From positions 1 to 64,000 of the forward strand of contig JAGATA010000018.1 in assembly GCA_017621475.1 (NCBI GenBank): a stretch of DNA of 64,000 bases, in the 5' to 3' direction. The DNA comes from Clostridia bacterium. Lineage in GTDB: Bacteria; Bacillota; Clostridia; Oscillospirales; CAG-272. Position numbers and translations under genes: made by a program. Positions 4,751-59,765 of this stretch are shown here, piece after piece. Each line of letters begins with the position of its first letter. The stretch's first letter is position 1. The notes under the pieces are model-generated. The model was given only the letters and a program-made list of their open reading frames with translations. It did not search any database and had not been told where the DNA came from.

Positions 4751-4756
4751 TTTATA

Positions 4757-6409: not shown

Positions 6410-6423
6410 TCTTGGAGAAAAAT

Positions 6424-6897
6424 ATGAGATTTTATATTAAACAACACGTTTTTACATTTGGTGATAAATTCAGCATTTATGACGAAAACGAAAATGAGCG
6501 TTTCTATGTCGAAGGTGAAGTTTTCACCTTCGGTAAAAAGCTGCATCTTTACTTCGCGAATGGCAACGAGGCAGCGTATATAGAACAAAAACTCTTTTCG
6601 TTTTTGCCCAAATATTACATAAGCGTTGGCGGAAATGATATTGCGGAAGTTGTAAAAGAATTTACGTTTTTCCGCAATGAATATAGCGTAAACGGTCTTG
6701 GATGGAAGGTAAGCGGTGATTTTATGGATCACGATTATTCCATTGTCAGCGAGGGCAGAACGATTGCGGTGGTTTCAAAACAATGGTTTTCTTGGGGCGA
6801 TGCCTATGAAATAAATATAGCCGATGGAATCGACCCTGCCATTGCTATTGCCGTAGTTTTGGTGATAGATGCGTGTCTTGAAGCTCAAGACAACTAA
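6424..6897 (+). CDS. LURP-one-related (YxjI-like) protein
   Basis: A 157-residue protein rich in short beta-strands with repeated F/Y-x-V patterns, matching the LURP-one/YxjI (tubby-like barrel) family: MRFYIKQHVFTFGDKFSIYD at the start and FSWGDAYEINI near the end. Function is unknown in bacteria; phospholipid binding has been suggested for tubby folds generally. The ATG at 6424 is chosen because GGAG precedes it by 6 bases; an in-frame GTG at 6406 overlaps the fakA stop and has no site. It is third in the fak operon. Confidence 0.8.
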   Translation: MRFYIKQHVFTFGDKFSIYDENENERFYVEGEVFTFGKKLHLYFANGNEAAYIEQKLFSFLPKYYISVGGNDIAEVVKEFTFFRNEYSVNGLGWKVSGDFMDHDYSIVSEGRTIAVVSKQWFSWGDAYEINIADGIDPAIAIAVVLVIDACLEAQDN

Positions 6898-6934
6898 ATA
6901 ATATACAAAAAACATATAAATTAAAAAAAAGCAA

Positions 6935-6972
6935 CCGGCAGTTGACAAATTGACTGCCGGCCTTTCTTGTTT
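6935..6972 (+). terminator. Intrinsic terminator of fak operon
   Basis: CCGGCAGT and ACTGCCGG form an 8-base stem, with further inner pairing, followed by CCTTTCTTGTTTTTT. Confidence 0.8.
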
Positions 6973-7025
6973 TTTTGCGATATTTGCGTTATAATTATAG
7001 CATAAAACATATCGAGGTGATATAT

Positions 7026-8033: not shown

Positions 8034-8046
8034 TATTAAAATATTA

Positions 8047-8093
8047 AAAATGCCCTTGTTTTGTATTATACAAGATAAAGGGTATTTTTGTGT
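8047..8093 (+). terminator. Probable terminator
   Basis: AAAAATGCCCTT (8047-8058) pairs imperfectly with AAGGGTATTTTT, followed by Gs and Ts. The stem is AT-rich and the loop long, so the call is moderate. Confidence 0.5.
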
Positions 8094-8120
8094 TATTTGA
8101 ATTATTTTTATACTAAATGG

Positions 8121-8150
8121 TTGACTTTATATATATAATTATGATATACT
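8121..8150 (+). promoter_or_regulatory. Promoter of DUF1538-PII operon
   Basis: TTGACT, 18-base spacer, TATACT, about 46 bases upstream of the first gene. Confidence 0.65.
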
Positions 8151-8196
8151 GAATTAAAATATATTCAGAAAAGTGGTGCGTTTTTTGAGAGCTATA

Positions 8197-43691: not shown

Positions 43692-43709
43692 AGTTAGTTA
43701 AAGCTAACT
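43692..43709. promoter_or_regulatory. Operator box B (AGTTAG-N6-CTAACT)
   Basis: A perfect 6+6 palindrome AGTTAG-ttaaag-CTAACT in the 5' leader, ending 5 bases before the AAGGAGG ribosome site of the regulator gene. Probable autoregulatory site. Confidence 0.75.
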
Positions 43710-43727
43710 GCAACAAGGAGGAAATTG

Positions 43728-44120
43728 ATGACATCTGCTGAACTCAGATATTTGATAGCTGCGGATGAGCTTTATGACGGAGTAAACGGAGTAAAGCTTA
43801 TCGAAATAGCAAATAAGGTAGGCGTATCCAAAGTTAGTGTTTACAGAGCAGTGGAGCGCTTGGAAAAAAATTATTACATCCAAAGAAACGAAAAAAATAA
43901 AGTTGTTTTGACTGAATACGGAAAAAAACAACTTGCGGATTACAGGGAAATAATGGACTTTATTCAAAGCCATTTGGAAAAGCAGTGTGGCACACCGAGC
44001 GAAGTTGCATATAACGATGCTTTGGGCGCTGCGTGTGCTTTCAGCGACATAAGCAGAGCAAAAATAGCCATCATATTGAAATCCGGTAAATGCTTGTATC
44101 AAGAAGAAAAGGAGAACTGA
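43728..44120 (+). CDS. DtxR-like winged-helix regulator, metal site altered
   Basis: A 130-residue protein. The winged helix (VKLIEIANKVGVSKVSVYRAV, then LTEYGKKQL) matches the DNA-binding domain of DtxR/MntR metal repressors, and the remaining part resembles a shortened dimerisation domain. The usual ligands are changed: the region around Cys103 reads AACAFSD where DtxR has C-x2-E-H, and the two-His/Glu set is not obvious. Candidate ligands are His82, Cys87, Cys103 and Cys122. No SH3 domain. The start at 43728 follows AAGGAGG by 6 bases. It heads an operon with two ABC half-transporters and is flanked by boxes A and B, its likely operators. It could sense iron, manganese or another ligand such as heme. 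Confidence 0.75.
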   Translation: MTSAELRYLIAADELYDGVNGVKLIEIANKVGVSKVSVYRAVERLEKNYYIQRNEKNKVVLTEYGKKQLADYREIMDFIQSHLEKQCGTPSEVAYNDALGAACAFSDISRAKIAIILKSGKCLYQEEKEN

Positions 44121-44124
44121 AAAA

Positions 44125-45852
44125 ATGATAGATAAAGAGCTGTTTCGTCTTATAGGCGGAAATAAGAAATATATCTATATGGCAGTTTCCGTGATGGTGC
44201 TCGGGCTTATTGCCAATATCGGCGTTACCGCGTGCATTTGTTTTGCAATATATATGCTTACGAAAAACGCAGAATGGACTGAATACATCGCACCTTTTGG
44301 CGTGGCGCTTGTTTGCATGGTTTTGCGATATATTGCCACAAGAATTGCGGGAAATATAAAGGATATTCTCGGTAGAAAAGTGAAGAAAGATCTTCGTGAA
44401 AAAACTTATAATAAGATTATAAAGCTAGGTGTTCGTTCTACGGACGGTATGAGTATGGCCGGCCTTACGCAGGTATCTATGGAAGGCGTTGAACAGCTTG
44501 ACCTCTATTATTCATCGTATATACCTCAGTTTTTCTATGCGATGATAGCTCCGTTTATACTTTTCTTTATTTGCCTTCCCATACATCCTCCCGTAGCTAT
44601 CGTACTTATTGCTTGCGTACCTCTTATACCTGTTTCCATAGTTGCCGTATCTAAGTATGCTAAAAAGATATTTGCAAAATATTGGGGTAAATATACATCT
44701 ATGGGCGACAGCTTCCTTGATAGTGTACAGGGATTGAAAGAACTGAAGATATTCAAAGCGGATGGCGCACAGCACGAAAAAATGAATGAAAATGCGGAAG
44801 AATTCCGTAAGATCACAATGAAAGTACTTGTTATGCAGCTTGCCAGCACGACCATTATGGACCTTGTTGCATATGGCGGTGCGGGAATTGGTATTGCTTT
44901 TGCTGTTTCGGCTGTTTTTGAAAAAACTCTCTCTCCCATTGCGGCGCTTTTCCTGATCCTTGTTGCGGTAGAATTCTTCCTTCCTCTTCGTGCGTTTGGA
45001 AGCGCATTTCACGTTGCGATGAATGGCGCCAGTGCGGGCAAAAAAATAATTTCGCTTCTTGATACGCCCGATCCTGTGTGGGGAGAAGGAGAAGTTACGG
45101 GAACTGAAATACGCCTTGAAAATACAACGTTTTCTTATGATGGAACACGCGATGTTCTTAAAAACGTAAGCGCTGTTTTTCCTGAAAAGGGGATGACGTC
45201 TATCGTAGGCGAAAGCGGATGCGGCAAATCTACTATTGTAAATATGATCGTCGGTGCATACAGACCAAAAAGCGGAACTGTTACTGTAGGCGGCAAAAAA
45301 TGTGAAGATATAAACAGGGAATCGTACTATTCACACCTTGCAGTTGTAAGCTACAATACTTTTATTTTTAATCAGACTGTAAGGGAGAATTTTTATCTTG
45401 CAAATGCGAATGTTTCCGACGAACAGATCTATGACGCTCTTGAAAAGGTGAATCTTGTTTCCTTTATACGCGAAAACGGCGGGCTTGATAAAGTGATAAG
45501 CGAGGACGCAAGCAATATCTCCGGCGGTCAGAAACAGCGTTTGGCTCTTGCGATAAGTCTTGTTGCAGCTAAAGATATTTATGTTTTTGATGAAGCTACA
45601 AGTAATATCGATATAGAGAGCGAAGCCATTATTATGAAAAATATAAAAGCTCTTTCCAAAGAAAAATCTGTTATAGTTATTTCGCATCGACTTGCAAATG
45701 TAGTTGCTTCCGATAACATTTATTATATGGAAGGCGGCGAAATAAAGGAGAGCGGTACACACAGTGCTCTGATGTCCAAAAAAGGTGGATATGAAAAGCT
45801 CTTTTCCGCACAGAAAGCTCTTGAAGAAGGTTACGCGGAGGTGTTGATATGA
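44125..45852 (+). CDS. ABC half-transporter, CydD/exporter fold
   Basis: A 575-residue fusion of a six-helix type IV membrane domain (about 1-310) and an ATPase (about 335-575). VEQLDLYYSSYIPQFFYAM is the CydD-like region. ATPase: Walker A GESGCGKST, signature NISGGQKQRLALAIS, Walker B IYVFDEATSNID, H-loop ISHRLA. It pairs with the next gene (ATGA overlap). Relatives include CydDC (heme/thiol transport) and the exporter-fold siderophore importers YbtPQ/IrtAB. The adjoining DtxR-like gene favours a metal or tetrapyrrole cargo. Direction cannot be told from sequence. Confidence 0.85.
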   Translation: MIDKELFRLIGGNKKYIYMAVSVMVLGLIANIGVTACICFAIYMLTKNAEWTEYIAPFGVALVCMVLRYIATRIAGNIKDILGRKVKKDLREKTYNKIIKLGVRSTDGMSMAGLTQVSMEGVEQLDLYYSSYIPQFFYAMIAPFILFFICLPIHPPVAIVLIACVPLIPVSIVAVSKYAKKIFAKYWGKYTSMGDSFLDSVQGLKELKIFKADGAQHEKMNENAEEFRKITMKVLVMQLASTTIMDLVAYGGAGIGIAFAVSAVFEKTLSPIAALFLILVAVEFFLPLRAFGSAFHVAMNGASAGKKIISLLDTPDPVWGEGEVTGTEIRLENTTFSYDGTRDVLKNVSAVFPEKGMTSIVGESGCGKSTIVNMIVGAYRPKSGTVTVGGKKCEDINRESYYSHLAVVSYNTFIFNQTVRENFYLANANVSDEQIYDALEKVNLVSFIRENGGLDKVISEDASNISGGQKQRLALAISLVAAKDIYVFDEATSNIDIESEAIIMKNIKALSKEKSVIVISHRLANVVASDNIYYMEGGEIKESGTHSALMSKKGGYEKLFSAQKALEEGYAEVLI

Positions 45853-47537
45853 AAAACAAGAAAAAATTAAGAAGAAGCGGGGCTAAAATTATGGCAAGCC
45901 TCGTGCTACTTCTCGGCAGTCTTGCTTATATTATGCTTTTAGCGGTTATAAACGGCACTCTCGGATTTATTTCCGCTATGGGCGTATCCCTCTTCGGTGC
46001 TATAGGAATTGCAAAGTTTCTTGGTGAAAGTATTGCGGTTTCATATTGGGTGCTGATTGCTCTTGCGGTGGGATGTGGTGTTCTTCGCGGACTTTTGCGC
46101 TATTTTGAGCAATACAGCAACCATTATATAGCTTTCCGCCTGTTGGCTACTTTGCGTGATAAGATATTTGCTTCGCTTCGTGAGCTTTGTCCCGCAAAGC
46201 TTGAAAGCAAGCAAAAGGGAAGTATTATTGCTATGATAACATCCGACATTGAAACACTTGAAGTTTTCTATGCGCATACAATCTCCCCTATATGCATAGC
46301 AGTTATATTCTCTTTGATAATAACCATATTCGTTGCTATTGTGTCAGGCCCTTGGCTTGCCTTGGTTGCGGTTTGCGCATATCTTTTTATAGGAATTGCA
46401 GTTCCTATGATATCTTCGGGTATGCTTAAAGAATCCGGTGTTAATTACAGATGTGAATTTTCCTCTTTTAACGCCTACTTCCTCGATAGCATCAAAGGTG
46501 TTAAGGATATAGTTCTCAATAATGCGGGAGAAAAAAGAGAGAAAGAAGTAAATGCTCGTTCCGATGTTTTGCTTCGTGAAACGAAAAAGATGAAGCATAA
46601 TACCACGGCTGCGGCTGCTTTTACAGAACTTTCTGTATCTTTTGCAATACTCATTACGCTTATTGTTGGTATAGTTCTTGTCAGCGCTAACGCAATAAGC
46701 CTTGGCAGAATGATAATAGGTGTTGTTGCGGTATTTTCAAGCTTTGGTCCTGTTATCGCTATTTCCGCATTGCCCGGAAATCTTACACAAACTTTTGCAA
46801 GCGGAGACAGAGTTCTTGACCTTTTGGAGGAAAAACCTGTTGTAAATGCTGTTAAAGACGGAGAAAAAATCGAATACAACAACCTTAAAGTTGAAAACCT
46901 TTCGTTCTCTTATGATTCACAAACACAGGTTTTGAATGATATCTGTATGCACGCTCAAAAGGGAGAAATCGTTGGTATCGTCGGTGAAAGCGGATGCGGT
47001 AAATCAACATTTCTCAAACTTTTGCTTCGTTTTTGGCAAAAGACAGGAGGTAGTATTTGCTACAACGGAATAGATATTGATAATATAAACAGCGACAATT
47101 TGCTTGACAATGTTACAATGGTAAGCCAGGTGACATATCTTTTTGATGAAAGTATAGAGGATAACCTTCGTATTGCCAAAGCAAATGCAACGGATGAGGA
47201 ACTTGAACATGCTTGCCGTTTGGCTTCCGTACACGATTTTATAATGACGCTTCCGGAAGGATACAAAACAAGAGTGGGCGCTTTGGGTGATAATCTTTCC
47301 GCAGGCGAAAAGCAGAGGATAGGCCTTGCGAGAGCTTTCCTTTCGGGAAGCGAACTTATCCTCCTCGATGAACCTACAAGCAATGTTGATAGCATCAATG
47401 AAGGTATTATACTAAAAGCACTTAAAGAGCAAAAGAATAAAAAAAGTATAATTCTTGTTTCACATAGAGAATCCACTATGGCAATAGCTGATAGAATATA
47501 CCGTGTTGAAGCGGGAAAAATGACAGCTCTTAAATAA
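45849..47537 (+). CDS. ABC half-transporter, CydC/exporter fold
   Basis: A 562-residue partner of the previous protein. The membrane domain spans about 10-320 with QKGSIIAMITSDIETLEVFYAHTISP, as in CydC-like proteins. ATPase: Walker A GESGCGKST, a degenerate signature LSAGEKQRIGLARA (LSAGE for LSGGQ), Walker B LILLDEPTSNVD. The asymmetry of the two signatures suggests a heterodimer with one weak ATP site. It ends in a strong terminator. Confidence 0.85.
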   Translation: MKNKKKLRRSGAKIMASLVLLLGSLAYIMLLAVINGTLGFISAMGVSLFGAIGIAKFLGESIAVSYWVLIALAVGCGVLRGLLRYFEQYSNHYIAFRLLATLRDKIFASLRELCPAKLESKQKGSIIAMITSDIETLEVFYAHTISPICIAVIFSLIITIFVAIVSGPWLALVAVCAYLFIGIAVPMISSGMLKESGVNYRCEFSSFNAYFLDSIKGVKDIVLNNAGEKREKEVNARSDVLLRETKKMKHNTTAAAAFTELSVSFAILITLIVGIVLVSANAISLGRMIIGVVAVFSSFGPVIAISALPGNLTQTFASGDRVLDLLEEKPVVNAVKDGEKIEYNNLKVENLSFSYDSQTQVLNDICMHAQKGEIVGIVGESGCGKSTFLKLLLRFWQKTGGSICYNGIDIDNINSDNLLDNVTMVSQVTYLFDESIEDNLRIAKANATDEELEHACRLASVHDFIMTLPEGYKTRVGALGDNLSAGEKQRIGLARAFLSGSELILLDEPTSNVDSINEGIILKALKEQKNKKSIILVSHRESTMAIADRIYRVEAGKMTALK

Positions 47538-48003: not shown

Positions 48004-48513
48004 TTACAGAGTCAACGATGGAGCAGTATATACTCTTGCAGCAAGCTCCTGGTTGAGCATATAAAGACTCTTTGGATCCGAGCCGAAAAGTTCCATCTTC
48101 GTGATCATATCGTTGGCGTTGGTTTCTTCCTCGCCCTGTTCCTTCACAAACCAGTCAAGGAACTGCATCGTGCGGAAATCTTTTACCTCATATGCTGCCG
48201 CGTAGATATCGTTTATCAGCGAGGTGACGTACTCTTCGTGCTCAAGACCTGCTTTAAGCACATCTATATGGCAAGCAAACTCCTTATCTGGCTTCGGGAT
48301 GGCTTCTAGAGTTACCTTTTGGTTTTCATTTTGGAGGTACTGATAGAACAGCATTGCATGGTCGCGCTCCTCCTGCGCCTGAATCTTGTACCAGTTTGCA
48401 AATCCGTCAAGTCCCGCATCCTCAAAGTAATTTGAGAAATCAAGATACAGATATGCGGAGTAAAACTCCTTATTGATCTGTTGATTTAACAGCTCGTGTA
48501 CTTTTGCATTCAT
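48004..48513 (-). CDS. ftnA: Ferritin (non-heme, FtnA type)
   Basis: A 169-residue iron-storage protein with the four-helix ferritin pattern. INKEFYSAYLYLDFSNYF and AQEERDHAMLFYQYLQ supply ferroxidase Glu/His residues, and a later helix has FVKEQGEEETNANDM. No heme-ligand Met as in bacterioferritin is evident. The start at 48513 follows GGGAGGACG. It is in one operon with desulfoferrodoxin (19 bases upstream) and rubredoxin. Codon choice here (more CTG/CTC, GAG) looks a little different from the neighbouring genes, hinting at lateral origin. Confidence 0.95.
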   Translation of the reverse strand: MNAKVHELLNQQINKEFYSAYLYLDFSNYFEDAGLDGFANWYKIQAQEERDHAMLFYQYLQNENQKVTLEAIPKPDKEFACHIDVLKAGLEHEEYVTSLINDIYAAAYEVKDFRTMQFLDWFVKEQGEEETNANDMITKMELFGSDPKSLYMLNQELAARVYTAPSLTL

Positions 48514-48532
48514 CGTTATTTCGTCCTCCCTA

Positions 48533-48916
48533 TCAAATCTCTTTCTTCCACAGCCCGTGTAGGTTGCAGTATGCATATGCGGCAACAGGAGTCTCATCTG
48601 CCAAGGCAAAGGTTACGGTAGGCGCTTTGCCTACTTCAAGGCACTTGCGCTGACCGCCTTTGTCAGTCTGAAGATATACCCAAAGAATGCTATGCTCCTC
48701 TACCATAGGGTGCTCTACAGCACCGATAGTTACTGTTACGGTGTTACCATCAACAGAGACTACGGGAATGTGCTTTTCGTGGCTTGCCTCAACGGTGCCG
48801 GGCTCAAGCTTGGTCATTTTCTGTCCGCAGCACATCATAGGAACACCTGCATCATTAATCATACCAATCAGGTTGCCGCAGTGCTCGCAAATATAAAACT
48901 TGTTATTGTCACACAT
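48533..48916 (-). CDS. dfx: Desulfoferrodoxin (2Fe superoxide reductase)
   Basis: A 127-residue class I superoxide reductase. The N-terminal desulforedoxin centre uses Cys10, Cys13, Cys29 and Cys30. The C-terminal catalytic Fe(His4Cys) site uses His of SHEKHIP, EHPMVEEHSI and CNLHGLW (Cys117, His120). It reduces superoxide to peroxide with electrons from rubredoxin, typical for anaerobes. CGGAGG site; first gene of its operon. Confidence 0.96.
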   Translation of the reverse strand: MCDNNKFYICEHCGNLIGMINDAGVPMMCCGQKMTKLEPGTVEASHEKHIPVVSVDGNTVTVTIGAVEHPMVEEHSILWVYLQTDKGGQRKCLEVGKAPTVTFALADETPVAAYAYCNLHGLWKKEI

Positions 48917-49097: not shown

Positions 49098-49115
49098 AGT
49101 TAGCCATGGCTACCA
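49098..49115. promoter_or_regulatory. Operator box C (AGTTAG-N6-CTACCA)
   Basis: AGTTAG-ccatgg-CTACCA, containing the perfect 12-base palindrome TAGCCATGGCTA, 1 base upstream of the -35 of the nine-gene operon. Same arrangement as box A relative to its promoter. Confidence 0.65.
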
Positions 49116-49116
49116 C

Positions 49117-49146
49117 TTGACTCAGCTTTGTAAAATATGATAGAAT
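49117..49146 (+). promoter_or_regulatory. Promoter of nine-gene uptake operon
   Basis: TTGACT, 18-base spacer, TAGAAT. An 8-base perfect hairpin (AGAGAGTA-tgg-TACTCTCT, 49156-49174) starts at about the expected first transcribed bases and may protect the 5' end. Confidence 0.65.
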
Positions 49147-49189
49147 ACACAAGATAGAGAGTATGGTACTCTCTTGTTTAAAATAAATA

Positions 49190-49207
49190 AGTTAGTGGAT
49201 GCTAACC
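49190..49207. promoter_or_regulatory. Operator box D (AGTTAG-N6-CTAACC)
   Basis: AGTTAG-tggatg-CTAACC in the 5' leader, ending 9 bases before the AGGAGG region of the first gene. It mirrors box B in sequence and position. Confidence 0.72.
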
Positions 49208-49231: not shown

Positions 49232-50029
49232 ATGAAAAAAATTATAGCACTTCTTCTTGCTATAATTATTGCTTGCACAGCCTTGGTGGCTTGCGGCGGC
49301 AACAACGAAGAAACGAAATTGAGTGTGGCTCGTTCTTTTATTGCCGGTTATACAAAGAGCGTTTCTATGGGTGAAACGGCTATGGAAATGAACGGCAGAG
49401 TTCTTATGAACCTTATGAACGACGGCACTCTTGAGCTTTATGTAGCTCTTGATGCAATGGGATCTCTCCAAACTGCAAAATACACAGGTACATATACTCT
49501 TGGGGAGAATGAAGAATTTGATGAAACGATAACATTTACTTATCAGTATGGGGAAACTGCCGAAGACAGTGTAACTGTTACGGATGCGGTAATTCTCGAT
49601 GGAATTTTCTCTACACCTTTCCATATGATAACAACAATGACATCTGCGGATATTGACTTCTACGAAACAGCTCCTACCGATGTTGAAGGAGATGTTTATG
49701 TTGGTTTCATGCAGAAAGAAGGCGGTATGGGTAAGATGACATACTCTTACGCTCTTGCTATGAAGGAAGATGGCACTTTTTCCGTAAGCATTATGCAGAT
49801 GGCACCTGCTATGGGTATGCACGCTTGGGGTGCTACAAATGGCACATATGTTGTTGATGGTGAAAATGTTACTTTCACATATAATGTTGTTTCCGAAGAA
49901 GGCGAAGTTGTTGCAGAAAACTTTGTTTCCGAAGGTACCGGGTATTCCGAAAAAGGCCTTTCCGTTGGATTCAATATTGCTCAGGCAAGCGCAAAAGCTT
50001 CCCCCGCGCCTTTTATCAAAGTAAAATAA
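49232..50029 (+). CDS. Met-rich lipoprotein, first gene of uptake operon
   Basis: A 265-residue lipoprotein: signal peptide with lipobox LVAC, lipidated Cys21, then GGNNEE. The mature part is beta-rich with short repeats, and unusually rich in Met (GETAMEMNGRVLMNLMN; GFMQKEGGMGKMTY; SIMQMAPAMGMHAW). Its C-terminal half (KEDGTFSVS, then NGTYVVDGENVTFT) is clearly related to the lipoprotein at 57465 (ADGTFAYS, then NGTYVVDGSRFIFT), so the two bracket the operon. No named family is recognised. A surface binder of heme, metal or metallophore is inferred from position and the operators, not from a known domain. Confidence 0.75.
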   Translation: MKKIIALLLAIIIACTALVACGGNNEETKLSVARSFIAGYTKSVSMGETAMEMNGRVLMNLMNDGTLELYVALDAMGSLQTAKYTGTYTLGENEEFDETITFTYQYGETAEDSVTVTDAVILDGIFSTPFHMITTMTSADIDFYETAPTDVEGDVYVGFMQKEGGMGKMTYSYALAMKEDGTFSVSIMQMAPAMGMHAWGATNGTYVVDGENVTFTYNVVSEEGEVVAENFVSEGTGYSEKGLSVGFNIAQASAKASPAPFIKVK

Positions 50030-50064: not shown

Positions 50065-50751
50065 ATGGATAGAGCACGTACAGAAACAGGCGAACTCAAC
50101 AGATTTTTTAATTGGGCATACAGAACACGCGGCAATACGGTAAAAGCACTTGCTGAAGGTAAAATGATGTCCCCTGAAAAGATGTTTCTTTCTTTTACTT
50201 CTCACGATCCCGTTTTTATCAGCAACGGTCCCGAAGGACTCAATGGTTCCGTAAAAGGCATTGGATTTATTCCTAAAGATGAATATCTTGAAGAAGCTCT
50301 TGCTGCTTACGTTGAACATATCAAGAGTTATGACCCCGAAGACAAAACATACAGCGACAGAGGTCTTAAACTTCTTATGAAATGGCTTTACTCTGAAGAG
50401 GCTGAAAAAACAATAGATTTTGAACACATCTACAGCGTTGAAATGGCATTCAAACACAGTTACGCAAACTATAAGGCAAATCCCGAAGCAACACTTCTTT
50501 TCTATCAGCCCCCGATGCTTTCTTTTGAAGTTCGCGGCAAGATGGAAATAATCGGCGAACACCACGAGATCGGAACTGCCGATCCTTTCTCTCTGCCTCT
50601 TATTCAGCAGTTTATAAACGCTCAGCACGATGTATATCATCTGCCAAATATTGAACGTTGGGTATCTCGTCTCGCATATAAATTTACCGTTGAAGAGATC
50701 TTTGATAATTCTGCAAATAAAATCGGCTTCGGCACAAGAATTCCTTTTTAA
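50065..50751 (+). CDS. Unknown cytoplasmic protein of uptake operon
   Basis: A 228-residue protein without signal peptide or membrane span. I do not recognise a family. It begins MDRARTETGELNRFFNWAYR; the middle is helical with LLMKWLYSEEAEKTIDFEH; the last third has LLFYQPPMLSFEVRGKMEI, then GEHHEIG and NAQHDVYHLPNIERW, a cluster of His residues. The strand pattern there faintly recalls FMN-binding split barrels (HugZ-like), but this is not firm. AAAGGAG site. Its place between a lipoprotein and an ABC importer suggests it processes or binds the imported cargo. Confidence 0.6.
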   Translation: MDRARTETGELNRFFNWAYRTRGNTVKALAEGKMMSPEKMFLSFTSHDPVFISNGPEGLNGSVKGIGFIPKDEYLEEALAAYVEHIKSYDPEDKTYSDRGLKLLMKWLYSEEAEKTIDFEHIYSVEMAFKHSYANYKANPEATLLFYQPPMLSFEVRGKMEIIGEHHEIGTADPFSLPLIQQFINAQHDVYHLPNIERWVSRLAYKFTVEEIFDNSANKIGFGTRIPF

Positions 50752-50761
50752 TGAGTGAACT

Positions 50762-52654
50762 ATGAAGAAGATAATTTCTGTTTTACTTTTTATCTCTTTG
50801 CTTATCTTGATGGTTCCTTCCTGTGGAAGACAGGACAAGTATGCAGAGTCTTTACGTGTCGGAACAACAGAACTTCCGAAAAACCTCAACCCTTATTCCT
50901 CTACGGCAAGTTCCTCTACTTTTTTTGTGGGACTTTTCTATAATACGGCTTTGAGCAGCAACTCTGTTCCCGTAGGATATGAAACCGGTAAAACATTTAC
51001 TTTTCCGGACGGAAGCGTTTATACTCCCTCCGACCCAAAAATAAATCCTCTTGCCTTTGAGGATGGACTTCTTGAAGCAGAAGGTGCTTTCCCAAAACAG
51101 GATGGAAGCGTTTACGGTTATGAATACTTCGATCCCACCGAAGAGCAGTGGAAAGCACAGTGCGAAAAAGAATCTGTAATTTTCGGTTTTGACGAAAGCG
51201 GCAACGCTATCAATGAAACAGAAGAAGAATTTATGGAACGTGCGCTTATTACAGTTCCTAACAAAAACTGGATGCGCTTCCGCTTCAAAGTAGTTGATGG
51301 TCATAGCTGGAATGACGGAACACCCTTTACTGCAGAGGATATAAAATTCACATTCGACTATATAGTTAAACATGCGGGCTCTCTCGGCAGCCAAGCATAC
51401 TTCCTTACTGATTACCATTCCAGTGAGGTAGTTGATGGAGATTTTGTATTTATTCTTTCAAGTAACAATTATACGGCTATGAAGTCAATATGTAACTCCA
51501 TAGTTATTATTCCGAAGCATATATGGCAGACAGTACGTAATCCTTCTAAGGAAAAAAATCTTAATCCTGTCGGTACAGGTGCGTACTATATCAAAGAAGG
51601 CGATTATATCGAAGGCAGCACGATCACGGCTTCATTCCGTGAGGATTACGATGAAAAGCTTACAAAAGAAATGTTTGCATATGAGCCTATCAAGAATATT
51701 TCCGTTATTCTTATGAGCAACGAAGACGTTCTTATAAATGCTTTGCGCGAGGGAAGTATAGACCTTATGATGGATACTGTAAATTCTTCTAAAGCTTATG
51801 CTGTGAAAAATAACAGTACTTATGATAACATTCAAATCTCATCTGTATATAACTCCTTTGTTTCCACGCTTCTTTTCAATGTAGGACCTTATGGTGCGTT
51901 TAAAGAAGGAAGTTTCAACGGCTATTCTAAAGAAATAAGACAGGCTATTTCTCTTTGCATAGATCAGCAGGTTCTTATCGACGAGGTGCTTCACGGCATG
52001 GGCGTTAAAGTTGGCGATGGTCTTGTTCAAGACTATTATAACCACGCTTATGTTGATGAAAACGGAAATTACGTTTATCACCGTACTAACGTAGAAGAAG
52101 CAAACGCTCTTCTTGATAAAACATCCTATAAGATGGATGAAAACGGAAGCCGCGGTATTACGCTTACTGTTTTTGCAAGCCCGGATAAAGAAGTTACTGT
52201 TAAGGCCCTTGCAACTCAGCTTAAGCAAATAGGCATTACCCTCGAATATGATCAGGCAACATCTACATATTCAGAGGATATAAAGCAATATAATCACGCG
52301 GATTTCGATATGATAATAAACAGCGTTTCGTTCACTCCCGAACAAATGCTTATGTTCGATGCGAGATATGGTGTTTATCCTTCCGGAAGTCCCAGAGTGT
52401 TTAATTATTCCGGTGTGATCGATAATGATCTTGTCGCTATGATGAAAACTATGGAACAGACTGCTAATACTGAAGAACAGTATAAGCTTTGCCGCGAGAT
52501 ACAGAAGTATATTGCGGATATGGCAATAGAGATACCTCTTTTCTCTGAAAATACAATAACCTTCTATTCTGAAAATCGTTATACAGGCTGGACAGAAGCT
52601 GAAGGCTCTTCGATATGGAATTCCTATTCCATTCGCTATTTGCACACAAAATAA
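50762..52654 (+). CDS. ABC substrate-binding lipoprotein, Opp/Dpp family
   Basis: A 630-residue SBP_bac_5 lipoprotein: lipobox VPSC with Cys21. Seen: LRVGTTELPKNLNPYSS at the mature N-terminus, WNDGTPFTAEDIKFTFDYI, NPVGTGAYYIKEGDYIEGS, and IRQAISLCIDQQVLIDEVL. A roughly 100-residue insertion (about 70-170, GSVYTPSDPKINP onwards) lengthens it relative to DppA (about 510 mature residues). It delivers peptides, nickel, heme or chelates to the permease encoded next. Weak ribosome site, 10 bases after the previous gene. Confidence 0.92.
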   Translation: MKKIISVLLFISLLILMVPSCGRQDKYAESLRVGTTELPKNLNPYSSTASSSTFFVGLFYNTALSSNSVPVGYETGKTFTFPDGSVYTPSDPKINPLAFEDGLLEAEGAFPKQDGSVYGYEYFDPTEEQWKAQCEKESVIFGFDESGNAINETEEEFMERALITVPNKNWMRFRFKVVDGHSWNDGTPFTAEDIKFTFDYIVKHAGSLGSQAYFLTDYHSSEVVDGDFVFILSSNNYTAMKSICNSIVIIPKHIWQTVRNPSKEKNLNPVGTGAYYIKEGDYIEGSTITASFREDYDEKLTKEMFAYEPIKNISVILMSNEDVLINALREGSIDLMMDTVNSSKAYAVKNNSTYDNIQISSVYNSFVSTLLFNVGPYGAFKEGSFNGYSKEIRQAISLCIDQQVLIDEVLHGMGVKVGDGLVQDYYNHAYVDENGNYVYHRTNVEEANALLDKTSYKMDENGSRGITLTVFASPDKEVTVKALATQLKQIGITLEYDQATSTYSEDIKQYNHADFDMIINSVSFTPEQMLMFDARYGVYPSGSPRVFNYSGVIDNDLVAMMKTMEQTANTEEQYKLCREIQKYIADMAIEIPLFSENTITFYSENRYTGWTEAEGSSIWNSYSIRYLHTK

Positions 52655-52674: not shown

Positions 52675-53781
52675 ATGAAGGGTTATTATTTCAAGAAAAT
52701 ACTCAGCTCCATATTCGTGCTGTTTATTATAATATCGCTTAATTTCTTTTTGCCGAGAATGATTTTCCAAGACCCCGCACAACCTTATTACGCAGGCGTA
52801 CCGGAAGACGCGTACGCCTTGCGTGAGCAGATAAGGGAAGAATACGGTTTTAATGATCCGCTTATAGTTCAATATTTTGATTATCTGGGAAGAGTATTTA
52901 CTCTCGATTTTGGTGAATCTCACTACTATAAGGAATCCGTTTGGACTGTAATGTTCAGCCGCATACCGTGGTCAATGGTTCTTACCATTTCATCAACTGT
53001 GATTTCCATAACTCTCGGTATAATTTATGGTGCTATTGCAGGAAAAAGACGCGAACATACGGCAGATAAAGCGCTTTTGTGGCTTTCGGGCGTTACAACG
53101 GCGATACCGTCATTTTGGCTGGCGCTCGTTTCCGTTATGCTTTTCGCATTTACCATAAAGTTATTCCCGTACAGAGGCGCTATGACGGCGGGATACACTC
53201 TTACGTTCAATATGCCGCTGTTCCTTATTGCATTTGCGTTGTGTGTAATACTTGCAATTGCATTGCGTACAATAACGAAAAAATCGTTGTTCGTTTTTGC
53301 CGGTATCCCTGTTTCTCTTCTTGCAGGCATAATTGTTGCCGTTCCTCCTGCGGATATATTCGACGTGGCTTATCACGCGGCTCTTCCTGTTATGATCTCT
53401 GTATTTTCCGGTACTATATCTTATGCGCTTCTTGTGCGAAACAGTATGATAGCTGTTACTAACGAGGATTACATACTTACAGCCCGTGCAAAAGGTTTGC
53501 CTTCTTCTGTGGTTCTTTACAAGCATACTTTCAGAAATGCACTCCTTCCGCTTATAACTAATGTTGGTATGTCTATGGCTGGTCTTCTTGGTGGTAGCGT
53601 TCTTATGGAAAAAATCTTCTCGTGGCCCGGTATGGGTCAGCTTTTGCTTGATGCTTGCAATAACGGTGACTATTTGCTCTCTCAAGCGATATTGCTTCTT
53701 TTTGCTGTGATAACGGTTGTTTGTAACTTTATCACAGACCTTGTATATCACAAATTTGACCCCAGAGTAAAGGAGGTATGA
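52675..53781 (+). CDS. ABC permease, DppB/OppB type
   Basis: A 368-residue type I importer permease. The N-terminal helix FVLFIIISLNFFLPRMIFQDP is followed by TDFGES-like FTLDFGESHYYKESVW, and the EAA loop reads EDYILTARAKGLPSSVVLYKHTFRNALLPLITNV. An extra hydrophobic pair (about 175-225) is inserted before the EAA region. It ends inside the start region of the next gene. Confidence 0.93.
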   Translation: MKGYYFKKILSSIFVLFIIISLNFFLPRMIFQDPAQPYYAGVPEDAYALREQIREEYGFNDPLIVQYFDYLGRVFTLDFGESHYYKESVWTVMFSRIPWSMVLTISSTVISITLGIIYGAIAGKRREHTADKALLWLSGVTTAIPSFWLALVSVMLFAFTIKLFPYRGAMTAGYTLTFNMPLFLIAFALCVILAIALRTITKKSLFVFAGIPVSLLAGIIVAVPPADIFDVAYHAALPVMISVFSGTISYALLVRNSMIAVTNEDYILTARAKGLPSSVVLYKHTFRNALLPLITNVGMSMAGLLGGSVLMEKIFSWPGMGQLLLDACNNGDYLLSQAILLLFAVITVVCNFITDLVYHKFDPRVKEV

Positions 53782-53786
53782 TTTTT

Positions 53787-54797
53787 ATGAAAAAGTTTTT
53801 TGAAAGATACATACTTTCTTCTTTAAAGGGAGTAGGAAAATTCCTTTTGGCGGTCGTGAAAAACCCGAAGGGCAGAAGAGGCGTGATACTGGTTGGTATA
53901 GTCGTTCTTGCTGCAATATTTGCACCTTATCTCACGCCATACGAGCTTGATGACTATAACATAGCAAATGGTCTTGCCAAGCCTTCGCTTGAGCATCTTC
54001 TTGGCACGGATAAGAACGGCATAGATATATTGACACAGCTTCTTTACGGTGCTCGTATATCTCTTATTATTGGTGTTACAACAGGTCTTTGTGTAACGTT
54101 TCTTGGCGCAACGCTGGGCGTTGTTTCCGCATATTTCGGAAAAGTGAGCGCCGCAGTTATTTTGAATATTATAAATGTGCTCCTCGTTATCCCCACAACT
54201 CCTCTTATGATGATAATGAGTAACCTTTCATCCAGTTATATTATGATGATTGCGATATTTACTCTCGTGGGATGGTGCGGTACGGCAAGAATGGTGCGCG
54301 CGCAGGTGCTTTCTATAACGAATATGAACTATATTCGTGCGGCAGAGCTTGCAGGCGGCTCCAAAACTTATATTATGTTTAAACATATTTTGCCTTCTGT
54401 TGCGCATTTGCTTATTATGAACTGCGCGCTTTCTTGCGCCGGTTTTATGATAGCAGAAGCAGGTCTCAGTTTTATTGGTCTCGGCGATCCTTCTGTTATG
54501 AGCTGGGGTAAGATCCTTGTAGCGGCAGAGGCAAGTGCGTTTACTTCAGGTCTTTGGGCGTGGGTTATTGCACCGGGTGTTGCTATATTTATAACAGTAT
54601 TCGGCTTTATGCAGATTGGCTATGCTCTTGAAGAAATTCTCAATCCTAAGATGAAACGCAAAAAAGATAAGAAAAAAGACGGACTTTCTCCCGAAGCTGC
54701 GGCAAAAGCTGTGTTTAAGGAGATCGTGGAGACCGGCGAAGAAGAAGCTGAAAAATTGAAAAAAGAATTTTTAATGTCGGAGGATAAAAATGGCTGA
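53787..54797 (+). CDS. ABC permease, DppC/OppC type
   Basis: A 336-residue permease partner. LGTDKNGIDILTQLLYGARISLIIG and the EAA loop TNMNYIRAAELAGGSKTYIMFKHILP are typical of DppC. A highly charged C-terminal tail (about 290-336, many Lys/Glu) is unusual. The ATG at 53787 is chosen over the one at 53778 because AGGAGG lies 10 bases upstream of it and only 1 from the other. Confidence 0.92.
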   Translation: MKKFFERYILSSLKGVGKFLLAVVKNPKGRRGVILVGIVVLAAIFAPYLTPYELDDYNIANGLAKPSLEHLLGTDKNGIDILTQLLYGARISLIIGVTTGLCVTFLGATLGVVSAYFGKVSAAVILNIINVLLVIPTTPLMMIMSNLSSSYIMMIAIFTLVGWCGTARMVRAQVLSITNMNYIRAAELAGGSKTYIMFKHILPSVAHLLIMNCALSCAGFMIAEAGLSFIGLGDPSVMSWGKILVAAEASAFTSGLWAWVIAPGVAIFITVFGFMQIGYALEEILNPKMKRKKDKKKDGLSPEAAAKAVFKEIVETGEEEAEKLKKEFLMSEDKNG

Positions 54798-55788
54798 TGT
54801 TCTTAATATCAAAAATTTAAAAGTTATCTTCCGTACAGGTGAAACTTTTGTCCGTGCGGTTGAAGGTGTCGATATTCGCATTGGCGAAGGCGAACGCGTT
54901 GCCATCGTGGGTGAGAGTGGATGTGGAAAAAGCGTAACGAGTCTTGCTTGTATGCGCCTTCTCACAACGCCTCCCGCATATATTGCGGCAGATGAATTTA
55001 CTTTTACATCTTCTGATGGTACGGTACACAATTTGCTTGAAAAAAGCGAAAGCGAAATGCTTGCTCTGCGCGCAGAAGAAATGGCGATGATCTTCCAGGA
55101 TCCCTCCACTTTCCTTAACCCCGTTATGACAATAGGAGAGCAACTGGACGAGGTATTTGTTTATCACTTGCATATGAAGCCCAAAGAAGCCCGTAGGCAC
55201 AGCATTGAAATGATGAAGAAAGTTGGTATTCCCGACCCTGAAATGCGCGCGGAACAATATCCGCACGAACTTTCCGGCGGATTAAAGCAGAGAATACTTA
55301 TTGCTATGGCAACATCACTTTCTCCAAGACTTCTAATCGCAGATGAGCCGACAACAGCGCTCGATGTAACTATTCAAGCGCAGATACTTGCTCTTATTTC
55401 TGAAAGATGCGAAAAGGAGAAAATGTCGCTCCTTATGATTACACACGACCTTGGCGTTGTGCGTGAAATGGCAGATAGGGTTTATGTTATGTATTGCGGC
55501 AAGATAGTTGAGGAAGGAACCGTGGATGAGATTCTCGATCATCCGCTTCATCCTTATACAAAAGCCCTAATTGATACCGTACCGGGTGTCGAGGAAAAAG
55601 TGGAGCGCTTTGTGCAGATACCCCACAATGTACCGCACCCCTCCAATAAACCCCAGGGATGTTATTTTTCAAACCGTTGCGCATATTGTACCGAACTTTG
55701 CAAAAAGAAACAGCCTCCGCTTGTTTCTAAGGAATCGGGCAGATATGTTCGCTGTTATTACGGAACGGAGGAACTATGGGAGAAATAA
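54790..55788 (+). CDS. ABC ATPase, DppD/OppD type
   Basis: A 332-residue ATPase. Walker A GESGCGKSVT, signature ELSGGLKQRILIAMA (LSGGL for LSGGM), Walker B LLIADEPTTALD, and a C-terminal oligopeptide-transporter extension with a Cys set (CYFSNRCAYCTELC), the Fe-S-like motif of this subfamily. It overlaps its neighbours by 8 and 13 bases. Confidence 0.95.
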   Translation: MADVLNIKNLKVIFRTGETFVRAVEGVDIRIGEGERVAIVGESGCGKSVTSLACMRLLTTPPAYIAADEFTFTSSDGTVHNLLEKSESEMLALRAEEMAMIFQDPSTFLNPVMTIGEQLDEVFVYHLHMKPKEARRHSIEMMKKVGIPDPEMRAEQYPHELSGGLKQRILIAMATSLSPRLLIADEPTTALDVTIQAQILALISERCEKEKMSLLMITHDLGVVREMADRVYVMYCGKIVEEGTVDEILDHPLHPYTKALIDTVPGVEEKVERFVQIPHNVPHPSNKPQGCYFSNRCAYCTELCKKKQPPLVSKESGRYVRCYYGTEELWEK

Positions 55789-56774
55789 TTCTTAAAACAA
55801 ATAATTTGACGGTCGATTTCAAAGTTAAGAAAAACATATTTGGAAAGCCGGATCGTCTTTCTGCCGTTCAGAACGCGAATATAGAAATCCGCAAGGGTGA
55901 GATATACGGTCTTGTGGGAGAAAGCGGTTGTGGAAAAACAACTCTTGCTAACGCCATTCTCAGTTTTGTTCCGATCACTTCGGGCTCTTTTGAATTTTTT
56001 GGTCATACCATCGATTCAAAAACAAAACCGTCCGAATGGAAAGAAGTTCGCAAACATATGCAGACCGTTTTCCAAGATCCGTATTCCTCTCTTAATACGC
56101 GCTTTACCGTTTGGCAGCTTATTTCTGAGCCTCTCTACATTGCGGGTGAACGTGATGAGAGAGTCCTTCGCGAACGCGCAGCGGCTTTTGTTGAAAAAGT
56201 AGGTCTTTCTCTTCAGGACCTTGACAGATACGTATTTGAGTTTTCCGGCGGTCAGCGCCAACGTATTGCCATAGCACGTGCGCTTATTACAGGTTCGGAG
56301 TTTATTATTTGCGATGAACCTACATCAGCGCTTGACGTTTCCGTTCACTCTCAAATATGTAATCTTCTTCTCGATCTTCGCGAGGAGATGGGACTTACAT
56401 ATCTCTTTATTTCACACAATCTTTCGCTTATTAAGCACATAACGGAGCATATGTCCGTTATGTATTTGGGTGAGATTATGGAAAGCGGTGCAACGGAAGA
56501 TATCTTCCAAAATCCTGCTTGTCCTTATACAGAAGCGCTTATGTCTGCTATACTTGACATAAGACCAAAGTCCGGCAAAGAGAGAATCATTCTTTCGGGA
56601 GAGGCGAGAAGCCCCATAAATCCACCGGATATATGCAGATTTGCAGGACGTTGCCCTAAGGCTTGCCAAATTTGCAAAGAACAGCCGTTACCTTCCCCTA
56701 CCTTCGTAGGAAATGATCATATGGCAAGATGCCATAGAATAGGAAATGAGGATAAGAAATATGGAAAACAATGA
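55776..56774 (+). CDS. ABC ATPase, DppF/OppF type
   Basis: A 332-residue ATPase partner. Walker A GESGCGKTT, signature EFSGGQRQRIAIARAL, Walker B FIICDEPTSALDVS, C-terminal Cys motif CRFAGRCPKACQIC. It completes a five-gene Opp/Dpp importer. The next gene starts 14 bases before its stop. Confidence 0.95.
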   Translation: MGEIILKTNNLTVDFKVKKNIFGKPDRLSAVQNANIEIRKGEIYGLVGESGCGKTTLANAILSFVPITSGSFEFFGHTIDSKTKPSEWKEVRKHMQTVFQDPYSSLNTRFTVWQLISEPLYIAGERDERVLRERAAAFVEKVGLSLQDLDRYVFEFSGGQRQRIAIARALITGSEFIICDEPTSALDVSVHSQICNLLLDLREEMGLTYLFISHNLSLIKHITEHMSVMYLGEIMESGATEDIFQNPACPYTEALMSAILDIRPKSGKERIILSGEARSPINPPDICRFAGRCPKACQICKEQPLPSPTFVGNDHMARCHRIGNEDKKYGKQ

Positions 56775-57441
56775 AAAGAATTTTTGCCCTTGCAATCCCA
56801 AATGTCCCAACTTCGGGAATTGCCGTGATTGCATCGCTGCTCACGCAAAATTTTATACAGTTCCAAAGTGTATAAAAATGATGCAGGAAGAAATGAAGGA
56901 AAACCATATCCATCCATCTAATCCTCATATACAGAAAACGCTTTCCCAGAGAATTGATGAATTTTATGCGGAAAATCCAGGGGCTCACCTTCGCAGTGTA
57001 GCGGAAAGCTTAAAGATCACTGAATGGCAGTTGCTCGATGCAATGAAGGATGCGATTTCTGTTCCTAAAGAAGACTTTGATTCGATTTATTCCGAACTTA
57101 CAAAGCTTGATGCCGTTATGTTTCACGCTGATACAGGAAGTGTTGTTCTTCAACTTACAACACATATTCCTGATGCTATGGATATGAATGGTATAAAAAT
57201 CGTAAAAACCCAAAGCGGAGAAATGTCGCTTACATCTCTTTTAATGAAAAAAGATTTTTATGATATCTTTCTCGTTCGTGAAACTCTTTACGGAGGAAAA
57301 GAGAGTCTCAGCTTTGCTATTGTAGGCGAAGACGAAAAAATAGCTCTTTCGATTTATATGCGTCGATCCGATGCTAATACGATAGAAATAAAATCAAAAG
57401 AACTTTTTGAAAAACTTTGGACAAAATATTTTAAACTTTAA
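56761..57441 (+). CDS. ChuX/HutX-like protein with Cys-rich N-terminus
   Basis: A 226-residue protein of two parts. Residues 1-40 hold Cys9, 11, 15, 21, 24, 37 and His28 (CPCNPKCPNFGNCRDC), like small Clostridial Cys-rich proteins and probably a metal or Fe-S site. Residues about 65-226 follow the ChuX/HutX heme-utilisation pattern: helix LRSVAESLKITEWQLLDAM, strands VMFHADTGSVVLQL, NGIKIVKTQSGEMSLT, then DIFLVRETLYGGKESLSFAI and ALSIYMRRSD. HutX-type proteins bind heme after import. The start at 56761 follows GAGG by 9 bases. The similarity is by eye and should be tested; if right, it makes heme or another tetrapyrrole the likely cargo of this operon. Confidence 0.65.
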   Translation: MENNEKNFCPCNPKCPNFGNCRDCIAAHAKFYTVPKCIKMMQEEMKENHIHPSNPHIQKTLSQRIDEFYAENPGAHLRSVAESLKITEWQLLDAMKDAISVPKEDFDSIYSELTKLDAVMFHADTGSVVLQLTTHIPDAMDMNGIKIVKTQSGEMSLTSLLMKKDFYDIFLVRETLYGGKESLSFAIVGEDEKIALSIYMRRSDANTIEIKSKELFEKLWTKYFKL

Positions 57442-57464: not shown

Positions 57465-58304
57465 ATGAAAAAGTTACTTGCTCTTTTTGTGATGATTGCA
57501 ATGTTGGTTTCTATGGTTGCTTGCAGTGGCAACAATGAGACAACTACAGAAGCAACAACTACAACGGAAGCTACAACGGCTGTTATTGCTCCCGGCGTAA
57601 ATGAAGGTACATTCAAGTCCGGCGTATATACCGGAACATCCTCTTACGCTACCGAAGGAATGAATATGACTTGGAACTTTGTTCTTACTCTCAAGAATGA
57701 TGGTACATTTACAATTTCCGATGGTACAACGGAAAAGGGTGCAGGTACATATGCACTTACAAATGATTGCTACACTCTCACATATTCTGACGAAAGAACA
57801 TCTACATTCGTTGTTCAGAAGGATGGCACTCTCAGAATGACAAAGGATCTTCCTTACGGTATTGCAACGATTCAGCTTGCTCTTGTTGGAGAAATCGTTT
57901 TTACTTACCGGAGTGATGTTCCCACAGATAGTGGCAATGGTGATAACACAGGCAACGATAACACAGGCGATACAAGTGTTTATACAATCGCAGCAGGTAC
58001 ATATTCCGCAGAATATGAAAAAGTAAGCGCAATGGCGGGCACTGTTCTTTACAAATATACAGCAACAGTAGGTGCAGACGGCACATTCGCTTATTCAGTT
58101 AAATTTGCAATGGGAGAAAATGAAATGGACGGTTCTTCCGCAAACGGAACATACGTTGTTGACGGAAGTAGATTCATTTTTACAGACAGCGAAGGCAATG
58201 TTGTAGAAGGCACTTTGACAGCTGAAAACACACTTAAAATTTCCCTTAAAGCAAGCCCCATGGCAAGCACGCCCTATGAAGTAACATTCGTTGTTGCTAA
58301 ATAA
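57465..58304 (+). CDS. Two-module lipoprotein related to the one at 49232
   Basis: A 279-residue lipoprotein: lipobox MVAC, Cys20, followed by a Thr/Glu-rich wall linker (about 24-42). Two beta-rich modules (about 50-150 and 172-279) are separated by a Gly/Asn/Asp/Thr linker (about 153-170). Both show Y-x4-DGTF and GTY patterns; the second (NGTYVVDGSRFIFT) matches the C-terminal half of the operon's first lipoprotein. Low Cys, moderate Met. Likely a surface-exposed binding protein closing the operon. GGAGA site; strong terminator after it. Confidence 0.75.
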   Translation: MKKLLALFVMIAMLVSMVACSGNNETTTEATTTTEATTAVIAPGVNEGTFKSGVYTGTSSYATEGMNMTWNFVLTLKNDGTFTISDGTTEKGAGTYALTNDCYTLTYSDERTSTFVVQKDGTLRMTKDLPYGIATIQLALVGEIVFTYRSDVPTDSGNGDNTGNDNTGDTSVYTIAAGTYSAEYEKVSAMAGTVLYKYTATVGADGTFAYSVKFAMGENEMDGSSANGTYVVDGSRFIFTDSEGNVVEGTLTAENTLKISLKASPMASTPYEVTFVVAK

Positions 58305-58309
58305 GATCT

Positions 58310-58346
58310 GAGAGACCGATTTTTTTAATGTCGGTCTCTTTTTTTG
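58310..58346 (+). terminator. Intrinsic terminator of uptake operon
   Basis: GAGACCGA and TCGGTCTC flank a T-rich loop, followed by TTTTTTT. Confidence 0.88.
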
Positions 58347-58539: not shown

Positions 58540-59094
58540 ATGTTAAGCTTTTTGTTATCGATTGCTGATGCAAGCAATCACGGGAAGATTACATATTTGT
58601 ACAATAATTATCACGATGATATGATGAGGCTTGCTAAAGATCGATTAAAAAATCACGGATGTGACAATTATGAGATTGATGCAGAAGACGTTGTTCAAGG
58701 TTCCTTTTTGAATATTTTGAAGTATATAGACTCGGTAAATTTCGACTTGCCCAAAAAAGAGCTGCGATCGTACGTATTGACTATTGTGCTGAATGAAAGC
58801 GGAAAACTGGCAAAAGAATACGAAAAATTTGATTTTACCGAAGGTCCTGAAACAAACTGTTCGGATGAAGATTTTTTCGAAAAGTTAGAGATCAAGGAAA
58901 AATATCTACTGGTTATGTCTCTGATAAAGCGTATGGATGAAAAATACGGCATAACGCTGCTGTATTATTACCACGAAGATATGAGCGTGAAAAATATTTC
59001 TAAGATTATGGGGATATCTTCAAAAACAGTTTATAAAAGACTCGAAAGAGGAAAATTGATGTTGCTTGAAATGTTGGAAGGGAGAGTGGAATAA
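58540..59094 (+). CDS. ECF-like sigma factor
   Basis: A 184-residue sigma-70 family protein. Region 2 lies at about 18-85 (YNNYHDDMMRLAKDRL; DAEDVVQGSFLNILKYID) and region 4 at the C-terminus (KNISKIMGISSKTVYKRLERGK). The linker is acidic. AGGAG site. It overlaps the next gene by one base (TAATG), the usual sigma/anti-sigma coupling. Confidence 0.9.
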   Translation: MLSFLLSIADASNHGKITYLYNNYHDDMMRLAKDRLKNHGCDNYEIDAEDVVQGSFLNILKYIDSVNFDLPKKELRSYVLTIVLNESGKLAKEYEKFDFTEGPETNCSDEDFFEKLEIKEKYLLVMSLIKRMDEKYGITLLYYYHEDMSVKNISKIMGISSKTVYKRLERGKLMLLEMLEGRVE

Positions 59095-59765
59095 TGGATA
59101 AGGAAGCCAGAGAATTATTTGGGAAAGCTTTAGCGGAAGCATTTGCGGAGAAACTCGATGAAGAATTGGCGGCGTGCGAGGAAACTGCAGCTTGCTCACA
59201 GGAGCACTATGACAAAATGCAAGAAATTATAAATAGCAGCCGAAGTGCACCTAAACGAAAATTTTCGCGAAAATCGTTGATAGCTATAATAATAGCGGCG
59301 GCTTTGCTCCTTACGGGATGCGCTGCGTATATTTGCAGAAATGAGATACGAGATTTCGTTGAAGAGGTGTATGAAAAATTCGTAAGGCTGACTTACAATG
59401 AAAGCGATAAAATATCATCGGCAGAAATCAATGAAATTTATGAACTTACATATGTACCTGATGGATATGAGTTGGTGCAAGAAATCGTAAATCCTGTAAA
59501 TATATTTTATAAATTTGAAAATGATAATGGTAATTTTTTAATATTTCAACAGGGTATTATAGATAATACTAAATCTGGATTAGACATAGAGCAAGGTAAT
59601 ACTTTGTTCTATGAGTCGAGTCAATACAAGGTGTATTGTCGTGAATTGGACACAAGTTTACATTATATGTGGAATGACGGAAAGTATTCTTTGCGCTTAA
59701 CATCATCTGTTGTGCTTGATGAAGCTGAACTTAAGAAAATAGTGTTGGGCGTTTCGAAAACTTAA
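59094..59765 (+). CDS. Membrane anti-sigma factor (DUF4367-like)
   Basis: A 223-residue single-span protein. The cytoplasmic part (1-60) is acidic then basic, one transmembrane helix lies at about 62-83 (SLIAIIIAAALLLTGCAAYI), and the outer domain (about 90-223) contains YELTYVPDGYELV and a C-terminal strand pattern of DUF4367. It likely sequesters the sigma factor until an envelope signal is received. It ends in a strong terminator, so downstream genes are separate. Confidence 0.82.
   Translation: MDKEARELFGKALAEAFAEKLDEELAACEETAACSQEHYDKMQEIINSSRSAPKRKFSRKSLIAIIIAAALLLTGCAAYICRNEIRDFVEEVYEKFVRLTYNESDKISSAEINEIYELTYVPDGYELVQEIVNPVNIFYKFENDNGNFLIFQQGIIDNTKSGLDIEQGNTLFYESSQYKVYCRELDTSLHYMWNDGKYSLRLTSSVVLDEAELKKIVLGVSKT

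Follow-up and report, generated by a model that had tools for sequence, protein, structure and literature searches.

Methionine-rich lipoproteins with predicted lipocalin-like modules at both ends of an Opp/Dpp-type transporter operon in Clostridia

In a 64,000-nucleotide stretch of a Clostridia bacterium genome (the window), a lipoprotein gene with conspicuous methionine clusters, here called A, opens a transporter operon that ends with a related gene, B. This raises the question of what the two proteins are built from, and what they might bind. The analysis below indicates that A is a real and conserved protein, more than a methionine-rich oddity, and that its module comes from a known fold class.

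A repeated barrel module with conserved methionines

The coding features of A and B are as follows.

49232..50029, + strand: A, Met-rich lipoprotein of 265 aa, with lipobox LVAC-G and ribosome-binding site AGGAGG
49325..49669, + strand: barrel module 1 of A, residues 32-146, from DSSP of the AlphaFold2 model and profile similarity to other modules
49691..50026, + strand: barrel module 2 of A, residues 154-265, from AlphaFold2, profile comparison and structural alignment
49793..49822, + strand: Met/His cluster MQMAPAMGMH of A, residues 188-197, around the C-D turn, conserved as MQ(M/L)A..MH.W
57465..58304, + strand: B, paralogous lipoprotein with two modules of A's family, from BLASTP, profile-profile and module comparison

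Read by eye, the lipobox of A lies at residues 18-21 and that of B is MVAC; all A orthologues have a Cys near this place, within LFGC in locus L065. A contains 17 Met, 16 of them in the mature part, and its Met fraction of 6.1% (start excluded) ranks first among the window's 58 open reading frames of 150 aa or more, a set that includes non-genic frames. This agrees with the initial annotation, which had singled out A for its methionine content; the Met cluster it described is present, although its residue numbers (189-198) were one off.

To that annotation, A and the protein at 57465 came from one module family through a shared repeat, and the comparison bears this out. DGTF and NGTYVVDG occur at residues 180 and 203 of A, and B has DGTF at 79 and 205 and NGTYVVDG at 227. 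Full-length A and B match by BLASTP with E 1.4e-17 (composition adjustment off) and by profile-profile comparison with a probability of 97.8% and E 1.2e-12. The C-terminal modules of A and B score 50.5 against each other, where 20 column-shuffled controls reach at most 18.8, and the six pairs among the A and B halves score 24.1 to 50.5, each above the maximum of its own 20 shuffled controls (15.8 to 19.9). Because all six pairs exceed their controls, A and B each have two copies of a module of about 110 residues, where a single repeat had been described. Judged by these comparisons, the paralogy of A and B is beyond chance. In L062 (18244-19413) and L064 (17850-19022), B has three modules rather than two.

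The AlphaFold2 model of A (pLDDT 81.5, pTM 0.79) contains two barrels formed by two sets of eight strands, and so displays the eight-strand up-and-down arrangement of lipocalin-like folds. VIA-align matched this model to a domain of 1jju (Z 9.8), the putative lipoprotein 3lhn (Z 8.5) and NlpE (Z 7.9), values in a middling range that is common according to the tool's own warning; several heme-binding nitrophorins matched more weakly (Z about 5.5-6.6). Foldseek returned no PDB match for the model at E 0.001, and the best PDB sequence matches were at E 0.42 for A and E 0.62 for the module profile. The window copy of A matched no Pfam family at E 1, and its best NCBIfam match, TIGR03066 (E 5e-4), scored 20.1 bits where the cut-off is 93.25. 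Among B members, four of six matched PF13648 (Lipocalin_4) at E 0.01, the best at 2.8e-10. Against the gathering cut-off of 22.4 bits (whole-protein score), the B copies scored 41.4 (L064), 22.3 (L065) and 22.2 (L062), and the L064 copy of A fell just under it at 21.3. B of the window also matched NlpE weakly by sequence (E 0.0044).

The module is thus, on the predicted model, a lipocalin-like small up-and-down barrel, and the earlier statement that it matches no named domain is not supported, since orthologous copies match Lipocalin_4 and the predicted fold resembles lipocalin and NlpE barrels. A and B share with Lipocalin_4 and NlpE-type barrels the predicted small up-and-down barrel and the DGTF...GTY pattern; B of L064 passes the Lipocalin_4 cut-off, B of L065 and L062 lie at its edge and A itself stays below it. 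Unlike those barrels, A and B have tandem modules, conserved Met in the turns and a link to an Opp/Dpp-type operon.

Across six orthologues of A, residues M136, M166, M188, M196, H197 and W199 are invariant and MQ(M/L)A..MH.W is always present, the window copy having two more residues within the cluster than the other five; M68, M190 and M216 are invariant in all six B orthologues. The 20 modules that we aligned were 14 C-terminal-type A/B copies, both N-terminal modules of the window and four from a distant protein, the N-terminal modules of the other five loci being set aside. In this alignment, 17 of 20 modules have Met at the A-B turn column, 15 at the C-D turn and nine at the G-H turn, counts that are not independent because many rows are orthologues. 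The initial annotation had allowed that the module might prove to be a named lipocalin-like domain with non-conserved Met: the first half is what we find, but the second fails against the invariant cluster and the A-B and C-D turn columns. As several Met are conserved, the clusters belong to the family as a feature.

By topology, the A-B, C-D and G-H turns would share one open barrel end. Half of the Met of A (8/16) fall at that end (permutation P 0.096), as do 7 of its 11 conserved Met (P 0.028, post hoc), making the clustering only suggestive. By simple count, Met does not clearly surpass other residues in conservation: positions conserved in at least five of six orthologues include 11/16 Met versus 113/227 others in A, and 5/7 versus 119/229 in B.

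The operon and its distribution

Between A and B lie seven further genes, in the order given here, with a terminator-like element after B.

50065..50751, + strand: conserved protein with weak resemblance to PNPOx_N split barrels, from profile searches
50762..52654, + strand: family-5 substrate-binding lipoprotein, from domain profile searches
52675..53781, + strand: Opp/Dpp/Nik-type permease 1, NCBIfam profile match
53778..54797, + strand: Opp/Dpp/Nik-type permease 2, NCBIfam profile match
54790..55788, + strand: DppD/OppD-type ATPase, NCBIfam profile match
55776..56774, + strand: DppF/OppF-type ATPase, NCBIfam profile match
56746..57441, + strand: HutX/ChuX-like protein with an N-terminal Cys cluster, from Pfam, NCBIfam and PDB matches
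58310..58346, + strand: strong terminator-like hairpin and T run (z -4.84)

All of these genes share a strand and either overlap slightly or are separated by short gaps, and the nine from A to B are probably co-transcribed. The permeases and ATPases are nearest to oligopeptide, dipeptide and nickel models, and the substrate-binding lipoprotein matches NikA and CntA models among others. The PNPOx-like protein matches PNPOx_N below the cut-off (E 0.022 to 0.0011) and its profile finds nothing in the PDB at E 5; its AlphaFold2 model has a pLDDT of 37.6, and no structural claim rests on it. The HutX-like protein scores 33.5 bits against PF06228 (cut-off 25), falls short of TIGR04108 (E 9e-13, 48.3 bits, cut-off 110) and matches ChuX in the PDB at E 1e-7. 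PF06228 is found in only 1/295 genomes of the order. The N-terminal Cys cluster of this protein, CPC.P.CPN.G.CR.CI.AH, is kept in three aligned copies, and the gene (56746-57441) also matches DUF6485 weakly (E 0.52).

Divergent from A and upstream of it (48004-48916, - strand) are ferritin-like and desulfoferrodoxin genes, which we did not find in the L061-L065 stretches; with its listed TTG start the ferritin frame would run into desulfoferrodoxin, and it more likely begins at an internal ATG. Downstream of the operon (58540-59765) are a sigma-factor-like frame and one with a single apparent transmembrane stretch by eye.

Full-length A occurs in 4/146 same-family genomes, its own included, and so does the PNPOx-like protein. 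Weaker matches to A (E 2e-4 to 8e-4) in 7 of 11 same-family genomes were not counted as orthologues, the query spanning residue 1 to at most 150, and are treated as shared signal peptides or partial matches. A scan of genome contigs for A gave five further loci, L061-L065, three of which we take to be the same records as same-family genome matches, and four of the five come from deer rectum or colon (hindgut). The operon order is kept in all five, which are MAGs, except that HutX is missing in L063 (G026) and B is cut by the contig end in L061; counting the window, 5/6 A-bearing operons have the HutX-like gene.

A module profile search of the class added one genome among 245 (G600), in which a four-module Met-rich lipoprotein stands beside a divergent operon of the PNPOx-like gene (62% identity) and transporter, with no HutX in the system. 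The four-module protein lies at 8396-9886 of L070, and a ZIP-family gene is nearby. Searching the phylum with the PNPOx-like profile yielded four more genomes among 319. In three (L079-L081), genes of the PNPOx-like, substrate-binding, permease and ATPase types follow one another as they do in the window, and the fourth has the PNPOx-like gene alone within the stretch read; none of the frames in these loci finds its best window match in A, B or HutX. Upstream of the L079 operon (4556-9351) are a CopA-like P-type ATPase and two unmatched frames. Given this distribution in G600 and the phylum, the transporter and PNPOx-like protein look like an older core, which the Met-rich lipoproteins and HutX may have joined later. 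We found no description of this operon in the literature searched, which is not proof of absence.

Conservation within the operon is uneven. Identity across orthologues is 52-61% for A and 47-65% for B, compared with 79-89% for the PNPOx-like protein and 73-77% for the substrate-binding protein. This faster divergence of A and B, and the variation of B between two and three modules, might be expected if A and B served as structural or assembly lipoproteins, stabilising the transporter or envelope and holding no ligand. We consider this very improbable, as paralogous modules carry Met at the same turns and the MH.W motif is invariant, both of which point to a site.

A shared palindrome and an MntR-like regulator

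A second gene cluster in the window is joined to the operon by a common operator-like palindrome.

43693..43708, + strand: the palindrome GTTAG-N6-CTAAC before the MntR-like regulator gene
43725..44120, + strand: MntR-like winged-helix regulator, from HMMER alignment
44125..45852, + strand: CydD-like ABC half-transporter, best match TIGR02857, below cut-off
45849..47537, + strand: CydC-like ABC half-transporter, best match TIGR02868, below cut-off
49099..49114, + strand: one-mismatch palindrome copy GTTAGCCATGGCTACC next to the -35 hexamer
49117..49146, + strand: promoter-like TTGACT-18-TAGAAT with TG before the -10, from consensus match only
49156..49174, + strand: hairpin with an 8-bp stem in the A leader
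49191..49206, + strand: the same palindrome as at 43693, GTTAGTGGATGCTAAC, before the A start

Exact GTTAG-N6-CTAAC occurs twice in the window against 0.08 expected, with two sites in none of 100 shuffles, for a pattern that was picked after the sites had been seen; with one mismatch allowed there are four sites against 1.31 expected, a number reached by 7/100 shuffles. Among the other loci, L062, L063 and L065 have the exact form ahead of A, and L062-L065 have it ahead of the regulator; a variant, TTAGCNATGGCTA, lies ahead of A in L062, L063 and L064, while L061 has neither. Iron sensors of the DtxR family bind TTAGGTTAGSCTAACCTAA (PMC10317159), with TTAG/CTAA ends in common with the palindrome here.

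Nearly the whole of the regulator aligns with MntR (E 2e-6). Read by eye in the alignment, the residues that we take to be the Mn ligands of MntR (D8, E11, H77, E99, E102 and H103) are not kept: E11 becomes I, H77 V or similar, E99 L or I, E102 A or V and H103 C, and D8, just outside the alignment, is R or K by extension. H83 and C104 of the regulator (43725-44120) are invariant in 5/5 copies.

The half-transporters score 373.8 bits (CydD-like, equivalog cut-off 435) and 317.6 bits (CydC-like, cut-off 329.05), both below their thresholds. A role for the pair in cytochrome bd assembly was set aside, PF01654 being found in 0/5 genomes with 10/14 controls positive.

Candidate ligands and a possible capture route

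We tentatively propose that A and B are extracytoplasmic capture lipoproteins feeding the Opp/Dpp-type importer, most likely with heme or another tetrapyrrole. The HutX-like homology, the CydDC-like neighbours and the use of heme by Dpp systems make heme or a tetrapyrrole the best single guess at the ligand. Heme or metal binding by the Met clusters, as the initial annotation had suggested, is a putative property read from the operon context. Dpp transporters carry heme (PMC6751184, PMC2738685), and CydDC is discussed as a heme transporter in PMC11472508. One bacterial lipocalin binds heme (PMC8177097). Against this reading, HutX is absent from L063 and the G600 system, and a CopA-like gene lies near one distant operon. 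The L079-L081 operons, the Met conservation by simple count, the only suggestive clustering of Met and the sub-threshold PNPOx match also weigh against it.

In the proposed route, A and B would be anchored to the cytoplasmic membrane on its outer side, each as two lipocalin-like barrels, and the Met conserved in their A-B and C-D turns (plus G-H in B) would form a thioether-rich mouth. They would catch an iron-tetrapyrrole, with heme the likeliest, and hand it on to the importer's family-5 substrate-binding lipoprotein. Once in the cytoplasm, it would be received by the HutX-like protein and processed by the PNPOx-like protein. Co-transcription, ligand capture, heme as the ligand, the order of transfer, the role of the PNPOx-like protein and the placement of Met in space are the parts of this route that we infer; gene order and its conservation, module homology, the fold prediction, Met conservation, HutX-like homology and the common palindrome come from the analyses above.

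Lipocalin-like domains bind many hydrophobic ligands, and the nearest models of the permeases and ATPases include oligopeptide and dipeptide ones. The transporter could hence import peptides, with A and B binding peptides or hydrophobic small molecules and the heme genes as mere neighbours, as the occasional loss of HutX would allow. We think this unlikely: HutX, rare in the order, is nevertheless embedded in the operon, the palindrome is common to the operon and the CydDC-like pair, and the Met/His/Trp cluster of A is conserved.

Methionine-rich loops suit Cu(I), and the NlpE lipoprotein barrel is linked to copper. The barrels might therefore bind Cu(I) or another soft metal via thioethers, for capture or buffering with a Nik/Cnt-type metal or metallophore importer. 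The Met-rich loops of A, the NikA and CntA matches, the resemblance of both proteins to NlpE, the MntR-like regulator, the CopA-like gene about 2.5 kb from the L079 operon and the ZIP transporter in L070 would fit. But the HutX-like gene is present in most A-bearing operons, CopA adjoins only one of three distant operons, and no copper gene is visible in the window operon, which leaves a metal ligand quite unlikely.

Returning to heme, the proposed system resembles known ones in part. DppABCDF heme/peptide transporters and HbpA have the same family-5 binding protein, two permeases and two ATPases, to which the operon here adds Met-rich lipoproteins and HutX-like and PNPOx-like genes. It shares with hutWXZ operons the HutX-like protein and a possible split-barrel partner, but we see no HutW, the PNPOx-like protein is only weakly related to split barrels, and the HutX-like protein has an extra Cys-rich N-terminus. 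The hemophore-like HmuY family of Bacteroidota, like A and B, consists of extracytoplasmic beta-rich lipoproteins of anaerobes, encoded in a heme operon as A and B may be, and PMC12106395 and PMC6200708 describe members with two Met as heme ligands, under reducing conditions in the former. The operon partners of A and B differ, the likeness drawn here is one of type and context, and heme binding by A and B is putative.

A bolder and improbable version is that, in this Gram-positive gut lineage, tandem lipocalin-like lipoproteins evolved that, under reducing conditions, hold heme or a related tetrapyrrole via Met or Met/His for delivery to an Opp-type importer, and that an MntR-derived regulator, its metal ligands lost and a His and a Cys invariant, may sense the tetrapyrrole. 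If true, Met-liganded capture by lipocalin-like proteins would add a route of heme or tetrapyrrole uptake in uncultured herbivore-gut Clostridia, in parallel to the Met-type HmuY of Bacteroidota, and the regulator would be a testable example of an MntR fold without metal ligands.
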